NCBI GenBank assembly: GCA_031292195.1
Contig: JARLHP010000184.1
Location: forward strand, 1-61,676
Direction of reading: 5' to 3'
DNA from: Syntrophobacteraceae bacterium
GTDB lineage: Bacteria > Desulfobacterota > Syntrophobacteria > Syntrophobacterales > Syntrophobacteraceae
DNA length: 61,676 nt
In this document: in pieces, positions 17,687 to 41,800 of the stretch
How positions within the stretch are numbered: the first letter of the stretch is position 1
How the letters are laid out: each line of letters starts with the position of its first letter
The notes under the pieces: model-generated
What the model was told of the DNA's origin: nothing
What the model saw: only the letters and a program-made list of their open reading frames with translations
Database searches by the model: none
Translations under genes and position numbers: made by a program

Positions 17687-17691
17687 TTGAG

Positions 17692-17840
17692 GGAGCAGGG
17701 AGCAGGGAGCAGGGAGCAAGGAGCAAGGAGCAAGGAGCAGGGAGCAGGGAGCAGGGAGCAGGGAGCGGGGAGCGGGGAGCAGGGAGCGGGGAGCAGGGAG
17801 CAGGGAGCAGGGAGCAGGGAGCAGGGAGCAGGGAGCGGGG
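17692..17840. repeat. Heptanucleotide satellite (GGAGCAG)n
   Basis: About 21 head-to-tail copies of a 7-base unit, GGAGCAG with GGAGCAA and GGAGCGG variants, begin six bases after the thiE stop and end before the groES promoter. The units are near-perfect and strand-asymmetric (G-rich on plus). Copy number is likely variable. No spacers are present, so it is not a CRISPR. Confidence 0.95.
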
Positions 17841-17922
17841 AGAAAACCTCATTTTTATTCGCCGTCCTGCTCCTTACTTGCTGCTTCCGGCGGTCTCCCT
17901 CGATAATTCCTCAATTCCCTTC

Positions 17923-21455: not shown

Positions 21456-21484
21456 TTGAAAATAGCGGATCAAGAAATTACAAT
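21456..21484 (+). promoter_or_regulatory. Putative sigma-70 promoter of the def-fmt operon
   Basis: TTGAAA (21456-21461) and TACAAT (21479-21484) with 17 bases between. Predicted start near 21491, 50 bases before the GTG start of def. Read by eye. Confidence 0.55.
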
Positions 21485-21540: not shown

Positions 21541-22074
21541 GTGTCGCTTCTACCCATATCCGTATATCCGGACCCGGTTCTGCGTCAAAAGGCCGAGCGG
21601 GTCGAAAATATCGACGACGTCATTCAGTGTCTGATCGATGACATGATCGAGACGATGCAAGAGGCCCCTGGGATAGGTCTTGCCGCAAACCAGGTGGGGC
21701 GACCCGTGCGGGTGGTGGTGGTGGACGTGGAGTGCCGGGAACCGGGCCGGGGGCTGCTGGTGCTCATAAACCCGGAGTTGATCAGCGCCAGCGGCCAGAC
21801 AAAGTCCGAAGAAGGCTGTCTTAGCATACCCGGGTATTTTGCCGGTGTAGCCCGCCACCAGGAAGTCGTGGTGCAGGCACTGGACCGGGAGGGCCAAAGA
21901 ATCGAAATAGCGGCCGACGGTCTCCTTTCGATTTGTCTCCAGCATGAAATGGATCACCTGGAAGGCAAATTGTTCATCGACCGGATAAGTCCGATTTCCA
22001 GGGATATTTTTAAGAGAAGATGGAAAAAGAAATTGAAGGAGGAGGGGGCGGAAGCCCAATCGTGCCTGGACTAG
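21541..22074 (+). CDS. def: Peptide deformylase
   Basis: 177 residues, starting at a GTG with AAGGAAAAG upstream. All three metal motifs are present: GIGLAANQVG (motif 1), EEGCLSIPG (motif 2, Cys ligand) and CLQHEMDHLEGKLF (motif 3, HExxH-type). The enzyme removes the formyl group from nascent proteins using Fe2+. The basic tail FKRRWKKKLKEEG may contact the ribosome exit. The 3' end overlaps the fmt start by 55 bases, fitting joint translation with the enzyme that adds the formyl group. Confidence 0.97.
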   Translation: MSLLPISVYPDPVLRQKAERVENIDDVIQCLIDDMIETMQEAPGIGLAANQVGRPVRVVVVDVECREPGRGLLVLINPELISASGQTKSEEGCLSIPGYFAGVARHQEVVVQALDREGQRIEIAADGLLSICLQHEMDHLEGKLFIDRISPISRDIFKRRWKKKLKEEGAEAQSCLD

Positions 22075-23000
22075 TATTTCTTGGAACGCCTGATTTTGCT
22101 GTTCCCTGCCTGCGCCAATTGCTCGAATGCAAGGCGGATGTACGGCTGGTGATAACGCAACCGGACCGTGCCAGCGGCAGGGGTCGAAAAATCCATCAGT
22201 CCGCAGTCAAAAAGTTGGCGATTGAGGGGGGGCTTCCCGTCTACCAGCCGGAACGCGTTCGAGGCGAGGAAGTGATCGAAACCATCCGATCATACGGCGC
22301 CGAGATTGCTGTTGTGGCGGCCTTCGGCCAGCTTCTGCCGCAGTCTTTGCTCGATATCTTTCCGCTGGGGTCCTTGAACATCCACGGGTCGCTTTTGCCC
22401 AGGCTCCGGGGGGCAGCACCCATTCAACGCTCCATCCTGGCCGGAGAAGAGCTTACAGGCATCTCGATCATGCTGCTGGACGCGGGGCTGGACACCGGCC
22501 CGGTGCTTTTGCAAAAAGAGGTATCGATCAGCCCTGAAGACTCCTTCGGGAAGGTTTACGGAGAACTGGCCGAAAAAGGCGCGGAACTTCTCCTGGAGGC
22601 CCTTCGCGACTGGCCTGCGGGACGGCTCTCGCCTCTTGCCCAGGACGGCAGTCTGGCAACTTACGCCCCTCCCATCAGTAAAGAGGAGTTGCGGATTAAT
22701 TGGAATTCTGCGGCGAAAGATATTATAAATCAGGTTCGTGCATTTGATCCTGCGCCGGGCGCGTGGTTTTCCCTGGGGGGCAAGAGGGTCAAGTGTTTTC
22801 ACGCCGCTTCGGTTTCCTGGGCGGCAGCCGGGGGCCCCGGCGAGGTGATCGGGATGGCCGAAGGCGGCGGCCTGATCGTCGCGGCGGGCGGCGGCGGGTG
22901 GCTATGCCTGGGAGAGCTCCAAATGGAGGGGATGCGGCGCATGAGCGCGGGCCAATTCGCTCGCGGAAGATCCATACCCCAAGGCTCATTTCTGGAATGA
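22020..23000 (+). CDS. fmt: Methionyl-tRNA formyltransferase
   Basis: 326 residues. LVFLGTPDFAVPCL starts the Rossmann domain; the catalytic triad region NIHGSLLPRLRGAAPIQ and DTGPVLLQKE follow, then an OB-like C-terminal domain (about 210-320). It transfers a formyl group from 10-formyl-THF to initiator Met-tRNA. The ATG at 22020 lies inside def; the in-frame GTG at 22062 nearer the first conserved residue is an alternative start after a GGAGGAGGGGG stretch. The stop overlaps the next start as ATGA. Confidence 0.96.
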   Translation: MEKEIEGGGGGSPIVPGLVFLGTPDFAVPCLRQLLECKADVRLVITQPDRASGRGRKIHQSAVKKLAIEGGLPVYQPERVRGEEVIETIRSYGAEIAVVAAFGQLLPQSLLDIFPLGSLNIHGSLLPRLRGAAPIQRSILAGEELTGISIMLLDAGLDTGPVLLQKEVSISPEDSFGKVYGELAEKGAELLLEALRDWPAGRLSPLAQDGSLATYAPPISKEELRINWNSAAKDIINQVRAFDPAPGAWFSLGGKRVKCFHAASVSWAAAGGPGEVIGMAEGGGLIVAAGGGGWLCLGELQMEGMRRMSAGQFARGRSIPQGSFLE

Positions 23001-23838
23001 TTGAAGTGGAAAAACCTAGGGAACTTCTCCGGGAAGGAGCCCTTCCCGAGTCCGGCTCGCAAGGTGCTGGTTCGGAAAAGCGGGTGATCGTATCACTTGT
23101 TGCGCTTTTCGGGATCATCGCCACCGCTGCGCTCGTGCTCCTTTATATCGTGCCTTATTACGGTTTCCGCAGCATCTCGGTCCATCTTCCCCTGATCATG
23201 GGGGTGCTGACGGGCCTGGCCGGAGCGGTGCTGCTGGGCAGCCTGCTCCTATTGGCCGCGGTTTTCGCTCTTGGCCGGGACATATTCTTTTCCCGCAAGC
23301 TCCGCAGTGTGCCATACGGATGCTGCTGCCGGTCCTGATCGGTATCGGCAGGCTGGCCGGCTTTCGCCGCGAACAGGTGCAGCATGCCTTCGTTGCGGTC
23401 AACAACGAACTCGTTTTGGCCCAGTGTCGAAACGGCAGGCCGCTCAAATCGGTCCTGCTGCTCATGCCTCACTGCCTGCAGGATAGAGACTGCAAGGTAA
23501 AGGTCACCCACCAGGTGCAGAATTGCAAGCGTTGCGGCAAGTGCAGCATAAAGGATCTGTTGGAGCTCTCCGAAAAGTACGGCGCGCACCTGGCGGTGGC
23601 CACCGGAGGCACCATTGCGCGCCGGATAGTGATCGATACCCGCCCCGACCTGATCATCGCGGTAGCCTGCGAGCGCGATCTTACCAGCGGCATCCAGGAT
23701 ACGACTCCCCTGCCGGTATTCGGGATTTTCAACCAGAGGCCCTTCGGGCCGTGCATCAATACCCAGGTCGCCCTGGAGCAGGTCGAAGCCGTGCTGAAGT
23801 CGGTGCTTCCGCAGAAGCGGGACGGTTCGGATAACTGA
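22997..23838 (+). pseudogene. DUF116 protein split by a frameshift
   Basis: The first 113 codons (22997-23338) encode a polar start and two membrane helices (VIVSLVALFGIIATAALVLL; IMGVLTGLAGAVLLGSLLL) and run to ALGRDIFFSRKL before ending in an unconserved tail. The rest of the family sequence (LLPVLIGIGRLAGF on, with the cysteine set PHCLQDRDC and CKRCGKC likely for an Fe-S cluster) continues in the -1 frame to 23838. In known DUF116 proteins these parts are one chain. The switch lies at about 23300-23320. It may be a real mutation, a sequencing error, recoding, or two coupled genes using the ATG at 23320. Confidence 0.7.
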
Positions 23839-23848
23839 GGACTCCGCT

Positions 23849-24985
23849 ATGCCCGCTGATCGTCTGAAATTAAAAGAGCTTACCTTGAAAGGCTTTAAAT
23901 CCGTCGATGCAGCCGGCCAATCGATAACCTTTGGAGACGTAACTGTTTTTCTTGGTGCAAACGGCGCGGGCAAAAGCAATATCGTATCCTTCTTTAAGCT
24001 GCTAAATTATTTGACGACAGGCGGGCTGCAGATTTTTATAGGTGAGCAGGGCTACGGCGATTCACTGCTCCATTATGGCTCATCGACGACAGTGCGCGTC
24101 CAGGCTGAATTGAGATTCGAGCAGGCTGGTTGCAGTGAGGACACCTACAGCTTTACGCTGTCTCATGCCAGCGGCGACACACTCATTTTCACGGAAGAAT
24201 ACGTAACGTGGCGGAAAGCCGGCTATCCGAAGGCCCAAAAAGTTGATTTGAAAGCCGGACACAGAGAAGCGAATCTAATAGAAGATGCGAAAGAAACCGG
24301 TCTAACCAGTAAAACAAGCCGATTCATCCTCAACCTGCTCAGATCGTGTCGAGTTTATCAGTTCCACGATACATCCAGTACGGCAAAGATTCGCAATTAT
24401 GGCTACATTGGCGACGGCGACTACCTAAGAGACAATGCCGGGAATCTGGCCGCCTTCCTTTTTGCGATGGCGAGCAGAGAAGAGTGGAGAAGATATTACG
24501 AGCGCATCGTTCGCCATATCCAATTAGTCATGCCACAATTCGGAGATTTTATTCTAAGACCATCGCCGGTAAACAAAAGCAATATCGACCTGGACTGGAA
24601 AGACAAAGGCAGGGGGCATCACTTCGGTCCCCATCAGATATCGGATGGGGCACTGCGTTTCATGGCCTTGGCTGCGCTGCTGCTGCAGCCTCCGTCAACG
24701 CTTCCCAAGGTCATGGTTCTCGATGAGCCGGAACTTGGCCTGCATCCCGCCGCCATTTCCAATTTCGCAGGCATGGTTCGAACAGCGTCGGCAAATTCTC
24801 AGGTAATACTGGCGACCCAGTCGCCCCGCCTTGTGGATGAATTCGACGCCGAGGAGGTTGTGGTTGTTGAATGGGACGACCACAGTATATTTAGACGCCT
24901 GGACACGACTGCTCTTTCCGACTGGCTGGAACGATACAGCCTGTCCGAGCTCTGGGAAAAGAACGTTCTGGGAGGCCGGCCCTGA
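23849..24985 (+). CDS. OLD/RecF-like AAA ATPase of an AAA-DUF4276 pair
   Basis: 378 residues. ABC-type ATPase of the SMC/RecF/OLD group: LKELTLKGFKSVD start, Walker A GANGAGKSN (37-45), a long middle insert, an ISDGALRF signature-like motif (about 264), Walker B VMVLDEPELGLHP (Asp292, Glu293) with D-loop, and ILATQSPRLVDEF at the H-loop position. Such ATPases pair with a nuclease-like protein in defence systems (OLD, Gabija, PARIS). The partner at 24982 overlaps it by four bases. The gene is visibly poorer in GC than its neighbours and splits def-fmt-DUF116 from rsmB, signs of acquisition. Defence activity is inferred. Confidence 0.85.
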   Translation: MPADRLKLKELTLKGFKSVDAAGQSITFGDVTVFLGANGAGKSNIVSFFKLLNYLTTGGLQIFIGEQGYGDSLLHYGSSTTVRVQAELRFEQAGCSEDTYSFTLSHASGDTLIFTEEYVTWRKAGYPKAQKVDLKAGHREANLIEDAKETGLTSKTSRFILNLLRSCRVYQFHDTSSTAKIRNYGYIGDGDYLRDNAGNLAAFLFAMASREEWRRYYERIVRHIQLVMPQFGDFILRPSPVNKSNIDLDWKDKGRGHHFGPHQISDGALRFMALAALLLQPPSTLPKVMVLDEPELGLHPAAISNFAGMVRTASANSQVILATQSPRLVDEFDAEEVVVVEWDDHSIFRRLDTTALSDWLERYSLSELWEKNVLGGRP

Positions 24986-25677
24986 GCATCATCCGGCTTC
25001 ACATCACCGCCGAAGGTCAAACCGAGCAGGGATTTGTCAAGGAGATCCTGGCCCCTCATCTTGGAGCTTTCGGGGTCTTTGCCGATGCGCGGTGTGTAAT
25101 GACGGCAAGGGACAAACGGATCGGCAAGACATACCGAGGAGGCCTTTTTAGCTACGAAAAAGCCAAATCCGATATAGTTACCTGGATGAAGGAAGATGGC
25201 CATGGTGAGTGCAGATTTAGCACAATGTTCGATCTGTACGCATTGCCACGCAATTTCCCGGGATATTCAGGCGCACCGCGCGAAATGGAACCCTATCGGA
25301 GGATCGCTATTCTGGAGAACGCACTGAGAGATGATGTCGACGACAGGCGATTCATTCCCTATATCCAACTCCACGAATTCGAGGCTCTGATCTTCGCCGA
25401 TGTGAGGCAATTGGATTGGGAATACCTGGACCATGACGGCCCCATTGGGCGCCTCGCGAATACAGTTTGCACGACAAAGGACCAAAATCCCGAACTGATC
25501 GACGACGGCCCCGAGACGGCGCCATCCAGGCGCATCATCAGGGAAATCCCCGGATATGACAAGGTCAATGCGGGAATACTGGTCGCAAGAAAAATCGGCC
25601 TATCGACCATGAGAAACAAGTGCTCTCATTTTCGAGCCTGGATCGAGTCGCTGGAAAGACTGGCACAGGCATCGTGA
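24982..25677 (+). CDS. DUF4276 protein, TOPRIM-like partner of the AAA ATPase
   Basis: About 231 residues. No ATG, GTG or TTG fits the conserved N-terminus; the CTG at 24982, overlapping the ATPase stop as CTGA and preceded by GGGAGG at six bases, is the best start, giving SIIRLHITAEGQTEQGFVKE. DUF4276 hallmarks are AEGQTE near residue 11, the aspartate in FDLYALPRNFPGY, and IQLHEFEALIFAD about two-thirds along. DUF4276 has been proposed to have a TOPRIM-like fold, comparable to the nuclease half of OLD or PARIS systems. The ATPase/DUF4276 pair is recurrent, but its activity is unknown to me. Confidence 0.75.
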   Translation: MSIIRLHITAEGQTEQGFVKEILAPHLGAFGVFADARCVMTARDKRIGKTYRGGLFSYEKAKSDIVTWMKEDGHGECRFSTMFDLYALPRNFPGYSGAPREMEPYRRIAILENALRDDVDDRRFIPYIQLHEFEALIFADVRQLDWEYLDHDGPIGRLANTVCTTKDQNPELIDDGPETAPSRRIIREIPGYDKVNAGILVARKIGLSTMRNKCSHFRAWIESLERLAQAS

Positions 25678-25753
25678 AGCACATATCCCTGTATTCAGAG
25701 AGATATCCTTGGGTTGAGCTGACCGCTCAGGCGCCCTTGAGAGATTTTGCTTG

Positions 25754-27130
25754 ATGGTTACATCACGAATTCTGGCCTATCATATTCTGCTGCACCTGGA
25801 ACAGAAGGCGCCTCATCCCGACCGGCTGATCCGCACCACTTTGGAGCGCCATTCGGGGATCGAGGAGCGCGACCGGGCGCTTCTAACCGAGCTTGTCTAC
25901 GGCGTTTCGCGCTGGCGCGGGCGGCTGGACTGGCACATCGACCAGCTGAGCCGGACCAAGCCGGAGAGGATTCTGCCGGAAGTTCGGGTGTTGCTTCGGC
26001 TGGCTCTCTACCAGATCCTCTTTTTGGACCGCATTCCGGACCACGCGGCCGTAAACGATACGGTGGAGATCGCCAAGAGCAGCCAGCCCCCTCATGTCAT
26101 CAGATTCATTAACGGGTTATTACGCGAAGCCGCGCGCAGAGCCGCCCGACCCGAATCCGCGGGCGCCGGCTCCAATTGGAACTGGCCCGACCCGCAAAAA
26201 GACCCGGCCGGGTATATGGCCGTTATGACTTCCAACCCGCTCTGGCTGGTGAGCAGGCTGAGCGGTGAGATCGGCGCGGAAGAAGCGGGGCTTTTTTTCG
26301 AGGCCAGCAACAAAATCGCCCCGGCGGTCTTCAGGATAAATACCCTCAAGGCTTCCCGCGAGGAAGCGATTGGTTGCCTCAAGGCCGAAGGGATAGAGGC
26401 CGAGCCCTCAGCCCGGCTGGAAGGCGCCATCCGCGTAAAATCGCCCAGGCGGGACATGACGGAGACCGATGCTTTCAGGCAAGGCCTGCTGCAACCACAG
26501 GACGAAGCCTCGCAGATCGTTTCCATGCTGCTCGGGCCCGCGCGCGGTGAGCGCGTTTTGGACCTGTGTTGCGGTTTGGGCGTAAAATCGGCCCACCTGG
26601 CCATCCTGATGGAAAATGAGGGGGAAGTGCTGGGCGTTGACAATGCCGCCTGGAAGCTCGACGAGGCCCGCCGGAACGCCGAAAGGCAGGGATTAACGAT
26701 CATTCGTACCCTTGCCGAAGATGGACTGGCTCTCCAGCCCGAATCCACCGGCCTTTTCGACCGGGTACTTCTCGATGCTCCCTGTACAGGTTTGGGGGCG
26801 GTCCGCAGAAAACCGGATATCAAATGGCGACGACACATAAAAGACTCCTACCGGCTTTCGCTTGTCCAGAAAGAACTTCTCTTACATGCCGCGTGCTTTC
26901 TAAAACCCGACGGCGTGTTGGTCTATGCGACCTGTACCGTTTTGGGAGAGGAAAACGAAGCGGTGGCCCAACATCTTGGCCAATCACACCCCGAGCTTGC
27001 TCTCGAGCCGGCGGCCGAACACCTCCCGCCGTCTTGCCGGGAAATGGTTTCCGGCCCTTACTATCGCTCCTGGCCCCACAAGCATGACGCTGACGGCTTT
27101 TTTTCGGCCAGGTGGAAAAAGAGCCGGTGA
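25754..27130 (+). CDS. rsmB: 16S rRNA (cytosine-967-C5) methyltransferase RsmB
   Basis: 458 residues. An N-terminal NusB-like RNA-binding domain (RILAYHILLHLEQK to about 140) precedes the methyltransferase: RVLDLCCGLGVKSAHLA (SAM site), LLDAPCTGLGAVRRKPDIKW (motif IV cysteine) and LVYATCTVLGEENE (motif VI catalytic cysteine). It methylates C967 of 16S rRNA. In related genomes it often follows def-fmt-DUF116 directly; here two foreign genes lie between. TTGATG gives the start ATG at 25754. The 3' end merges with a GGTGAATR repeat tract. Confidence 0.95.
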   Translation: MVTSRILAYHILLHLEQKAPHPDRLIRTTLERHSGIEERDRALLTELVYGVSRWRGRLDWHIDQLSRTKPERILPEVRVLLRLALYQILFLDRIPDHAAVNDTVEIAKSSQPPHVIRFINGLLREAARRAARPESAGAGSNWNWPDPQKDPAGYMAVMTSNPLWLVSRLSGEIGAEEAGLFFEASNKIAPAVFRINTLKASREEAIGCLKAEGIEAEPSARLEGAIRVKSPRRDMTETDAFRQGLLQPQDEASQIVSMLLGPARGERVLDLCCGLGVKSAHLAILMENEGEVLGVDNAAWKLDEARRNAERQGLTIIRTLAEDGLALQPESTGLFDRVLLDAPCTGLGAVRRKPDIKWRRHIKDSYRLSLVQKELLLHAACFLKPDGVLVYATCTVLGEENEAVAQHLGQSHPELALEPAAEHLPPSCREMVSGPYYRSWPHKHDADGFFSARWKKSR

Positions 27131-28889: not shown

Positions 28890-29210
28890 ATGAAGAAATC
28901 GATCTGGATTTCCTACGACTTGGGAGTGAAAGGCGATTATGAGGGGCTTTATGCCTGGCTTGACAACCATAACGCCAAGGAATGTGGAAACGGCCTGGCG
29001 ACGCTCGAATACGAATACACAAACACCTTGGTTGAGGAAATTCAGCAGGACCTCTCCCAGTGCATGTCCCTGGCCAGACACGACCGTGTATACATGATAT
29101 GGCGTGAAGATCGGAGAATAAAAGGTAAATTCCTGTTCGGAAAGCGCAAGGCGGCGCCCTGGTCGGGGTATGGTCCCCAGGAGTCCCAGGTAGATGAGGA
29201 AGTGCAATAG
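28890..29210 (+). CDS. Small protein paired with a PIN-domain gene, possible Cas2/VapD-like fold
   Basis: 106 residues, not recognised as a named family. The order of predicted elements is strand (SIWISYDLGV), helix (YEGLYAWLDNHNAKE), strand (LATLEYEY), helix (LVEEIQQDLSQCMSL), strand (RVYMIWRE), strand (KGKFLFGK), a ferredoxin-like pattern like that of Cas2 and VapD, with an aspartate at the end of strand 1. That fold is inference only. The stop is two bases before the PIN gene, so the two form one transcription unit; an antitoxin or partner role is suggested by position. Preceded by an imperfect GGAGGCG/CGCCTCC inverted repeat at 28767-28802. Confidence 0.65.
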   Translation: MKKSIWISYDLGVKGDYEGLYAWLDNHNAKECGNGLATLEYEYTNTLVEEIQQDLSQCMSLARHDRVYMIWREDRRIKGKFLFGKRKAAPWSGYGPQESQVDEEVQ

Positions 29211-29212
29211 AT

Positions 29213-29638
29213 ATGGCTAAGAACCTGCTGGTGGATTCGGGCTTTTGGTATGCTCTTTACGATATTAGAGATACCTACCACGAAGACGCGCGGATACTTG
29301 CCGACCTTCTGGACCATTCAAATTTGGTTCTTCCCTGGCCCTGTCTTTACGAGACACTCAATACAAGGTTCGTTAAGAGGCGTGTTTGGCTTGACGGTTT
29401 TTTTGTATATTCCGGTCATGCCAACACCGTGCGGTTATCAGATGAACCATACCGTGACAAAGCATTGGAAAAGGTGTCCAGGAGCACGGCGCCATGGATG
29501 TCGCTTAGTCTTGTCGATTGGGTCATAAGGCTGGCCATCGAGGATAGAAATACAAAAATAGACGCAGTGGTCACCTTTAATCCGGATGATTTTTCCGACG
29601 TTTGTCATTCTAGAAGAATCGAATTGATTTCAAGCTGA
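29213..29638 (+). CDS. PIN-domain ribonuclease-like protein (toxin candidate)
   Basis: 141 residues. The PIN acidic residues are all in place: Asp8 in LLVDSGFWYAL, Glu47 in CLYETLNTR, Asp102 in LSLVDWVIRLA, and Asp125/126 in TFNPDDFSDV. The DTYHEDA stretch after strand 1 and the T.N..DF ending are typical of VapC-like nucleases, which cut tRNA or mRNA in the presence of Mg2+. It begins two bases after the 106-residue gene, as VapC follows its antitoxin, but that partner is not a VapB, AbrB or RHH protein. Toxin activity is inferred. Confidence 0.8.
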   Translation: MAKNLLVDSGFWYALYDIRDTYHEDARILADLLDHSNLVLPWPCLYETLNTRFVKRRVWLDGFFVYSGHANTVRLSDEPYRDKALEKVSRSTAPWMSLSLVDWVIRLAIEDRNTKIDAVVTFNPDDFSDVCHSRRIELISS

Positions 29639-40563: not shown

Positions 40564-41580
40564 ATGAAAAAGACAATTATCTTCATTCTCATTATCGTTA
40601 TCGGCGCCATAGCAGCCCTGGCCTACGAAATCCACGAGCGCCGGGGGAGTTCCAGGGACGAGCTCGTGCTGTACGGCAACGTCGATTTGCGGCAGGTAAA
40701 CCTGGCTTTCAACGGAAACGAGCGAATCCAATCCATTCTGGTGCGGGAAGGTGACCGGGTAAAGAAGGGGCAGGTGTTGGGAACGCTGCAGAAGGAGCGT
40801 CTGAAGGCCTCGGTGGATGAGGCGCGGGCGCGGGTGGAGGCGCAGCGGGAGGTGGTGGCGCGGTTGGAGCGCGGGTCTCGTCCGGAGGAGATCGATCAGG
40901 CCAGGGCCAATGTCGATTCGGCCAAAGCCGATCTTACCAACGCGCGGTTGCTGTATGAGCGGGCCAGTAAGACTTCGGTTAGCGGCGCCACCAGCGGCCA
41001 GGACCGGGACAGCGCGAAGGCGGCTTTCGAGATGGCCGAAGGCAGGCTGCGGGTAAATCAAAAGGCGCTGGAGCTGGCAGTGAAAGGCCCCCGGCAGGAG
41101 GACAAAGCCCAGGCGCGGGCTACGCTTCGAGCCGATGAGGCAAACCTGGCTCTTCTCGGGCAGGACCTGGCTTACGCCACCCTGGTGAGTCCCACCGACG
41201 GAGTGGTGCAAAATCGCATACTCGAACCCGGAGAAATGGCTTCTCCCCAGAGGCCGGTGCTCGACATCGCCATAACAAACCCCAAGTGGGTCAGGGTTTA
41301 CGTTTCCGAACCCGATCTGGGCAAGCTCCACCAGGGCATGAAGGCCCAAGTGTCCACCGACAGCTTTCCGGGGAAGGTTTACAACGGGTGGGTGGGGTTC
41401 ATCTCTCCCAGCGCTTCCTTTACGCCAAAATCGGTGGAAACGACCGATCTTCGGACCTCACTGGTCTACGAAGTGAGGGTTTTTGTGACCGACCCGCGCG
41501 ACGAACTGCGGCTGGGCATGCCCGCGACGGTGGTGGCGGCGTGGCGCCGCAGCGGCGGTGGGACCGCCAGCCGGGATTAG
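40564..41580 (+). CDS. HlyD-type periplasmic adaptor of the ABC exporter (YbhG-like)
   Basis: 338 residues. One N-terminal membrane helix (TIIFILIIVIGAIAALAY) anchors the protein. A split lipoyl domain (LVREGDRVKKGQVLGTL and YATLVSPTDGVVQNRI) flanks a long alpha-hairpin rich in Ala/Glu/Arg, then a beta-barrel with KWVRVYVSEPDLGKL. It links the inner-membrane ABC exporter to the TolC-like channel. The last residues, RRSGGGTASRD, are not conserved and derive from a GC-rich dispersed repeat that also supplies the TAG stop. Confidence 0.92.
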   Translation: MKKTIIFILIIVIGAIAALAYEIHERRGSSRDELVLYGNVDLRQVNLAFNGNERIQSILVREGDRVKKGQVLGTLQKERLKASVDEARARVEAQREVVARLERGSRPEEIDQARANVDSAKADLTNARLLYERASKTSVSGATSGQDRDSAKAAFEMAEGRLRVNQKALELAVKGPRQEDKAQARATLRADEANLALLGQDLAYATLVSPTDGVVQNRILEPGEMASPQRPVLDIAITNPKWVRVYVSEPDLGKLHQGMKAQVSTDSFPGKVYNGWVGFISPSASFTPKSVETTDLRTSLVYEVRVFVTDPRDELRLGMPATVVAAWRRSGGGTASRD

Positions 41581-41800
41581 CCAAGCCCAAACCACGGACT
41601 TTGGTGGTTGCCGGGTGTCCCTGGTCGACATGAGAAACAGCTCTGAAAAGTTGGCGGTGGGATCGCCGGCCGGGGCGGCGTGCCGCCGCAGCCGGGATTG
41701 CCAAGCCCAAACCATGGACTTTTGGCGGTTTCCGGGTATCCCGGGTCGACATGAGAAACTGCTCTGAAAAGTTGGCGGTGTGATCGCCGGGCGGGATTGT
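41557..41800. repeat. Tandem duplication carrying the GGCGGCG repeat
   Basis: Two units of about 126 bases run head to tail: each has CCGGGATT(A)GCCAAGCCCAAACCA, a GGTCGACATGAGAAAC block and CTCTGAAAAGTTGGCGGTG, and a third partial unit starts after 41785. The second unit carries the hairpin seen behind groEL, the first lacks it. Starts within the 3' end of the adaptor gene. The rest, 41801-42020, has a GGGCTGCGC element and no gene. Confidence 0.8.

Follow-up and report, generated by a model that had tools for sequence, protein, structure and literature searches.

A HEC-01-type pair of an OLD-like ATPase and a predicted TOPRIM protein inserted in a translation-gene operon of a Syntrophobacteraceae bacterium

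Gene order and composition of the locus

The DNA analysed here, termed the window, comprises 61,676 nt from a Syntrophobacteraceae bacterium (assembly GCA_031292195.1, contig JARLHP010000184.1, positions 1-61,676 of the plus strand). Coordinates without a locus label refer to the window; Gxxx and Lxxx denote compared genomes and loci. Seven genes on the plus strand follow one another in the order def, fmt, DUF116, ATPase, DUF4276, rsmB and a PALP-family (TrpB-like) gene. The features considered below are as follows.

21456..21484, plus strand: promoter-like site upstream of def (consensus scan; the sole plus-strand match between 21200 and the module)
21541..22074, plus strand: def, peptide deformylase (Pfam PF01327)
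22020..23000, plus strand: fmt, methionyl-tRNA formyltransferase (Pfam PF00551 and PF02911)
22997..23838, plus strand: DUF116 gene, frame-shifted near 23316-23320 (ORF list and sequence; Pfam DUF116 on the C part)
23849..24985, plus strand: OLD/ABC-type ATPase, HEC-01A (PADLOC, 424.6 bits; AAA_21; model with pLDDT 89.7; Foldseek)
23951..23980, plus strand: Walker A, LGANGAGKSN (G36, N38, G39, G41, K42, S43 and N44 each kept in all or all but one of 26 ATPases)
24707..24748, plus strand: Walker B region with DEPELGLHP (D292-P300 invariant in 19/19)
24982..24985, plus strand: CTGA, likely DUF4276 start overlapping the ATPase stop (sequence; junction comparison)
24982..25677, plus strand: DUF4276 protein, HEC-01B, predicted TOPRIM nuclease (Pfam, PADLOC, model, OLD match)
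25012..25026, plus strand: E11-E15 codons, ExxxE, putative first TOPRIM motif (invariant in 24/24)
25231..25239, plus strand: D84-L85-Y86 codons, DxY at the DxD position (D84 invariant and Y86 nearly so in 24 sequences)
25372..25383, plus strand: H131-E132-F133-E134 codons (E134 invariant; H131 and E132 nearly so)
25561..25563, plus strand: K194 codon, possible equivalent of the catalytic lysine in OLD (invariant in 24/24)
25678..25753, plus strand: spacer plus rsmB leader (continued in part at the module-free junction of G007, by-eye comparison)
25754..27130, plus strand: rsmB, 16S rRNA methyltransferase (Pfam PF01189 and NusB)

The two central ORFs are intact at 23849-24985 (378 aa) and 24982-25677 (231 aa), where an initial annotation of the sequence had placed them. 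That annotation described the pair as tightly coupled, lower in GC than its surroundings and splitting a translation-related gene order, and these descriptions hold. The ATPase stop and the DUF4276 start overlap by 4 nt, and the ATPase begins 10 nt past the DUF116 stop. The GC content is 51.5% in the ATPase gene and 53.2% in the DUF4276 gene, compared with 56.4-60.7% in def, fmt, DUF116 (C part) and rsmB; of all 1829-bp stretches in the window, 0.9% have a GC content as low as that of the pair. DUF116 directly precedes rsmB in 8 of the 11 genomes of the genus. The DUF116 gene is split in the window assembly by the frameshift near 23316-23320 and forms a single frame of 280 aa in G008; the frameshift may be true or a sequencing error.

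Comparison of the window with G009 gave dN/dS ratios of 0.069 (ATPase), 0.079 (DUF4276), 0.124 (rsmB) and 0.073 (TrpB-like gene), which are rough since dS is near or above 1. Judged by these ratios, both genes of the pair are under purifying selection. Full-length family matches and dN/dS below 0.08 rule out that the two frames are chance ORFs. The promoter consensus scan is weak, with 4 matches found against 2.4 expected. Its sole plus-strand match between 21200 and the module precedes def, a weak sign of read-through. The module is probably transcribed from the def promoter in this way, and expression of the pair would then be constitutive.

Three further features of the window lie outside the operon. 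A 7-bp tandem repeat, AGGGAGC, occupies 17690-17842 (21.9 copies, 95%), with genes downstream of it that we take to be groES/groEL from their translations. Two small adjoining ORFs of 106 and 141 aa are located at 28890-29638; the longer is PIN/VapC-like by eye, and neither has a Pfam match at E 0.01. A 121-bp unit is repeated 1.9 times (90%) at 41568-41795.

The ATPase

The ATPase matches the PADLOC HEC-01A model PDLC04175 over residues 7-378 with 424.6 bits and Pfam AAA_21 with 92.6 bits. In addition to Walker A, it contains a signature-like SDGALR and the Walker B motif VMVLDEPELGLHP. The residues of all three motifs are invariant or nearly so among 26 ATPase sequences, and thus the motifs pointed out in the initial annotation are both present and conserved in relatives. 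The structure model (pLDDT 89.7, pTM 0.89) has its nearest Foldseek matches in the PtuA proteins of retrons and Septu, in SMC heads and in Rad50. Elsewhere, the window genome has another ATPase of HEC-01 type, which is divergent and adjoins a weaker DUF4276 match of 42.7 bits (L045 9324-10508, contig C46).

Start and family of the DUF4276 protein

The second protein matches Pfam DUF4276 with 176.5 bits (cut-off 30.2) and the PADLOC HEC-01B model PDLC04188 with 249.2 bits over residues 3-228. The earliest ATG, GTG or TTG in its frame is at 25099. A start there would leave the protein without its first conserved motif, and the CTG at 24982, which lies downstream of GGGAGG, is therefore the likely start. 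Junctions in seven close homologues read ATGA in five, GTGA in one and CTGA in one (G009), and those of six more distant homologues vary. The acidic motifs on which the initial annotation had focused are present, AEGQTE as residues 10-15 and LHEFEALIFAD as residues 130-140.

DUF4276 as a predicted TOPRIM protein

The DUF4276 model was built from 24 sequences and has a mean pLDDT of 89.0 and a pTM of 0.87. Its best match among solved structures is the C-terminal region of Xanthomonas OLD (6njv; probability 1.00, E 1.7e-3, TM 0.43/0.46), and no solved structure matches at E < 0.001. Pyridoxal kinases (probability up to 0.90) rank behind OLD, with retron Eco8 at rank 14 (0.35). The best viral structure match is an RloB-like protein (probability 0.99, E 2.9e-3). 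A sequence search of solved structures with the DUF4276 sequence and alignment found no relative and at most three weak matches to unrelated proteins.

Profile comparison points in the same direction. DUF4276 against OLD TOPRIM regions gives P 3.7e-4, or 1.2e-4 end to end, with a modest hhalign probability of 36%; the comparison with RloB is weaker (P 0.019; 0.001). Five unrelated families give P 0.22-0.72; with reversed profiles the range is 0.24-0.71 in local and 0.44-0.93 in end-to-end comparison. The test is insensitive, since OLD against RloB itself gives a P of just 0.013.

Thirteen residues are invariant in all 24 DUF4276 sequences: E11, G12, E15, F18, G53, D84, E134, P170, E171, P181, Y192, K194 and C214. 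Y86, H131 and E132 are nearly invariant. The catalytic residues of Burkholderia OLD are E400, E404, D455, D457, T506, E508 and K562 (PMC6755086, in part). By order and helix position, and independent of any superposition, E11, E15, D84, E134 and K194 would correspond to OLD E400, E404, D455, E508 and K562. On the same basis, Y86 would take the place of OLD D457 and E132 that of T506. The motif-1 glutamate typical of TOPRIM proteins is invariant (E11), the DxD motif is absent with Tyr always or nearly always in its second position, and the fold is indicated by the OLD structure match and the profile comparison.

DUF4276 is thus very likely, as a prediction, of TOPRIM type, and the OLD structure match together with the OLD-like residue order makes it probably a TOPRIM nuclease. 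The comparison of the predicted structure with TOPRIM folds, which the initial annotation had proposed, thereby points to TOPRIM. The suggested combination of an ATPase with a TOPRIM protein stands in that the partner is TOPRIM-like, but the view of DUF4276 as a different kind of partner does not, since DUF4276 itself appears to be TOPRIM-type with DxY for DxD.

Insertion at the DUF116-rsmB junction

Within the genus, rsmB was found in 11/11 genomes. Eight of them (G001-G007 and G010) have rsmB immediately after DUF116, and the pair lies between the two genes in two, the window genome and G009; the ATPase and DUF4276 of G009 are 82% and 77% identical to those of the window. In the remaining genome, G008, residues 1-31 of the ATPase and the 25 C-terminal residues of DUF4276 persist at the junction, with ~1.7 kb of other sequence between them. 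This insert (L033 7955-9671, G008:C178) contains a DUF6932 gene and an ORF of 348 aa without clear family. The DUF6932 protein matches PF22014 with 105.4 bits and, weakly, with 46 bits, the PADLOC model PDC-M63A, which belongs to a different candidate defence system. Outside the genus, DUF116 directly precedes rsmB at 24/26 loci of the order. One of the other two ends 3 bp before rsmB. The second, in G308 (L187 1-3605, G308:C456), has neither DUF116, the pair nor a clear gene in the 829 bp before rsmB, which extend to the contig end. The order-wide rsmB search covered 39 genomes, three of which, including G008, gave no rsmB match at E 1e-60.

The insertion is local. With the junction occupied in few genomes and empty in 8/11 of the genus, insertion into a translation operon is borne out. 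The pair is not kept at the junction across relatives, and the constant vertical conservation that had been named as counter-evidence to a defence role is not found. By eye, part of the window rsmB leader continues in the module-free G007, and the right border therefore lies soon after the DUF4276 stop. A target-site duplication at the borders was considered and rejected; no common word of at least 6 nt occurs in the stretches compared. The three occupied genomes form no supported group in a tree built from def, fmt, DUF116, rsmB and the TrpB-like protein, and so either one old insertion followed by losses or several insertions may account for the junction.

Distribution and defence neighbours of related pairs

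Of 296 genomes sampled from the phylum, 52 gave a PF14103 match (43 above the cut-off), as did 8 of 26 genomes of the family (7 above the cut-off) and none of 14 control genomes. At all 45 places with flanking sequence, an OLD-like ATPase lies within 1.5 kb of DUF4276. Other pairs of the genus sit elsewhere, and most differ more from the window pair than do those of a Spirochaeta and a Phycisphaerales genome: their ATPase identities to the window are 46% (G006) and 39% (G010), compared with 55-56% for these two. The G004 pair, likewise sited elsewhere, is a closer relative with 70% identity, and its DUF4276 is broken by a frameshift into two frames (L042 8951-9710, G004:C353). DUF4276 relatives occur on 12 plasmid records among 72,556 searched. 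A phage-borne gene was considered too and rejected, with no DUF4276 match at E 1e-5 in 50,697 phage records. The patchy occurrence, the plasmid carriage and the lack of fixation at the junction are consistent with a mobile module.

Several relatives of the pair are embedded in defence operons. A BREX operon encloses it at at least 3 of 18 long-type loci (L090 and L095, with BrxC and BrxL; L099, with PglX and BrxL), and type I restriction genes flank it at at least 1 of the 18 (L092); these counts are minima, as the loci were assigned via 10 chosen proteins. Plasmid contexts were viewed for 11 of the 12 matches (all but H2). In four of these, helicase and methyltransferase genes adjoin the pair; among the four, an Aeromonas veronii plasmid carries it between type III mod and res and an Ideonella plasmid beside a PDC-S02 match. 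In two Nostoc plasmids it lies downstream of an AIPR-family gene, which on one of them has no PADLOC match at E 1e-15. The remaining 5/11 contexts have no helicase/methyltransferase-type system adjoining the pair. Their neighbours are a VapBC pair, a TrfA replication gene, transposases, partition genes, and an integrase, with a gene for a Piwi-domain protein at a greater distance.

The neighbour set consisted of 154 genes within five genes of the 18 long-type loci (148 aligned, 135 scanned). The control drew on 20 arbitrary regions in 14 of the genomes that carry these loci, with 135 of 155 genes used. PADLOC families matched at E 1e-10, counted over all members, number 152 among neighbours and 70 in the control. 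Enrichment of defence genes around the pair is not claimed because the control regions also held defence matches, namely a Zorya operon and DpdE-like and type IIG matches. The neighbour count that had been proposed thus does not establish enrichment over the control; individual relatives do lie within operons for BREX and for type I and type III restriction. A complete separation from defence genes, which would have told against a defence link, is not observed. OLD-ABC/TOPRIM pairs have been described as backup effectors in BREX loci (PMC12839542, in part). The DUF116-rsmB site of the window is itself not in a defence island.

Comparison with known systems

The pair is not an unnamed combination, which modifies the initial annotation. 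A HEC-01A-matching ATPase adjoins a HEC-01B-matching DUF4276 protein (models from PADLOC-DB 2.0.0), and the pair belongs to the candidate type HEC-01 already catalogued in PADLOC. HEC-01 is reportedly described in a 2024 preprint by Payne et al. Both proteins match the HEC-01 models over nearly their whole length; unlike HEC-01 embedded within another defence system, the window pair lies in a translation operon. HEC stands for Hma-embedded candidate (excerpts of PMC12988326 and PMC10855318), and HEC-01 is listed among the defence systems of Desulfovibrio piger strains (PMC12724379, in part). The word DUF4276 occurs in no paper of the open-licence library searched, and no account of how HEC-01 works was found there, most papers naming HEC-01 being judged by title.

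Compared with PARIS (AriA/AriB), the pair likewise combines an OLD-type ATPase with a separate TOPRIM-like protein, and the window ATPase scores as high as 80.8 bits against the AriA models. The partner differs in being DUF4276 with DxY, and membership in PARIS was rejected as DUF4276 has no AriB match at E up to 1 and no DUF4435 match. Gabija and class 1/2 OLD nucleases share the ATPase with TOPRIM and the order of the catalytic residues, whereas the window pair consists of two chains and lacks the second Asp of DxD. It is not Gabija, with two ORFs in place of one chain and with DUF116 and rsmB rather than a GajB helicase adjoining. AbiL/RloAB is also a two-gene system of an ATPase and an RloB/AbiLii-type TOPRIM, and both the AbiLi match (64.8 bits) and the RloB-like fold match are in line with it; the absence of an RloB or AbiLii match of DUF4276 at E up to 1 excludes membership. 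PtuA structures of Septu and retron PtuAB top the fold list of the window ATPase, and Septu was rejected in turn since the partner is the TOPRIM-like DUF4276, not the HNH nuclease PtuB.

Proposed mechanism and alternatives

As a whole, the pair is read as a horizontally mobile two-gene defence module of HEC-01 type with an ATPase-gated TOPRIM effector, to which we assign a probability of roughly 0.75. The pairing, motifs, insertion, conservation and TOPRIM-like model come from sequence or prediction, and from them we infer the defence function, the gating, the target (tRNA or DNA) and the expression. AriB of PARIS is a TOPRIM nuclease that acts with the ATPase AriA and cleaves tRNA, which its E26A mutant does not; among ATPase-TOPRIM systems, tRNA cleavage (PARIS) and DNA nicking (Gabija) are both reported (PMC12409363, in part). 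A PARIS-like ATPase-gated TOPRIM effector is most likely. Read-through from the def promoter would transcribe the module, and the 4-nt overlap would couple translation of the two proteins. The OLD/PtuA-like ABC ATPase would most likely sense infection, holding back the separate DUF4276 nuclease and then releasing or activating it. Like OLD and AriB, DUF4276 would use two metals to cut nucleic acid, and the cutting would stop phage growth, probably by abortive infection. The chances that the target is tRNA rather than DNA are about even.

The position in a translation operon, and purifying selection as strong as in the core genes, would also fit a nucleic-acid quality-control or repair pair that, together with def, fmt and rsmB, serves to turn over RNA or to maintain ribosomes, comparable to RNase M5, a TOPRIM nuclease that matures 5S rRNA (excerpt of PMC6755086). 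However, this role is less likely, and we regard it as improbable: the junction lacks the pair in 8/11 genomes of the genus, the middle of the pair is replaced in G008, and localised relatives are found on plasmids and in restriction and BREX operons, not by translation genes. An equally small chance is given to a toxin-antitoxin-like addiction pair, in which the ATPase would neutralise a toxic DUF4276 nuclease and the pair would persist mainly through its own stabilising effect and not through phage defence. Plasmid carriage suits this reading, as do the TOPRIM_OLD toxins that are paired with and neutralised by AAA proteins; but the same source speculates that such pairs are abortive-infection systems, which makes addiction compatible with defence (PMC10440598, in part), and the ATPase comes first in the pairs displayed. 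That DUF4276, with its second Asp replaced across 24 aligned sequences (DxY for DxD), has lost its nuclease activity and acts just in nucleic-acid binding or in signalling for the ATPase is very unlikely, given that all 24 sequences keep the five other catalytic positions that were mapped and that single metal-site substitutions in OLD had no discernible effect, just combinations abolishing cleavage (PMC6755086, in part).

Beyond the ATPase-gated defence module, a tentative extension may be considered. The DUF116-rsmB junction could be a swap site of small defence cassettes that use the operon promoter, where in G008 the DUF6932/PDC-M63A gene and a second gene replaced the HEC-01 core and left both ends, and the HEC-01 effector could form a separate TOPRIM class, distinguished by ExxxE, DxY, HExE and YxK and by an altered metal site.

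New here are the TOPRIM assignment with its residues and the DxY change, the CTGA start, and the housekeeping-operon site with the core replaced in a relative. Naming the OLD/AriB-like TOPRIM residues makes the DUF4276 assignment directly testable. That a probable defence module sits within a housekeeping operon and has partly given way to other genes in a relative suggests that defence systems turn over outside the islands targeted by most searches as well.
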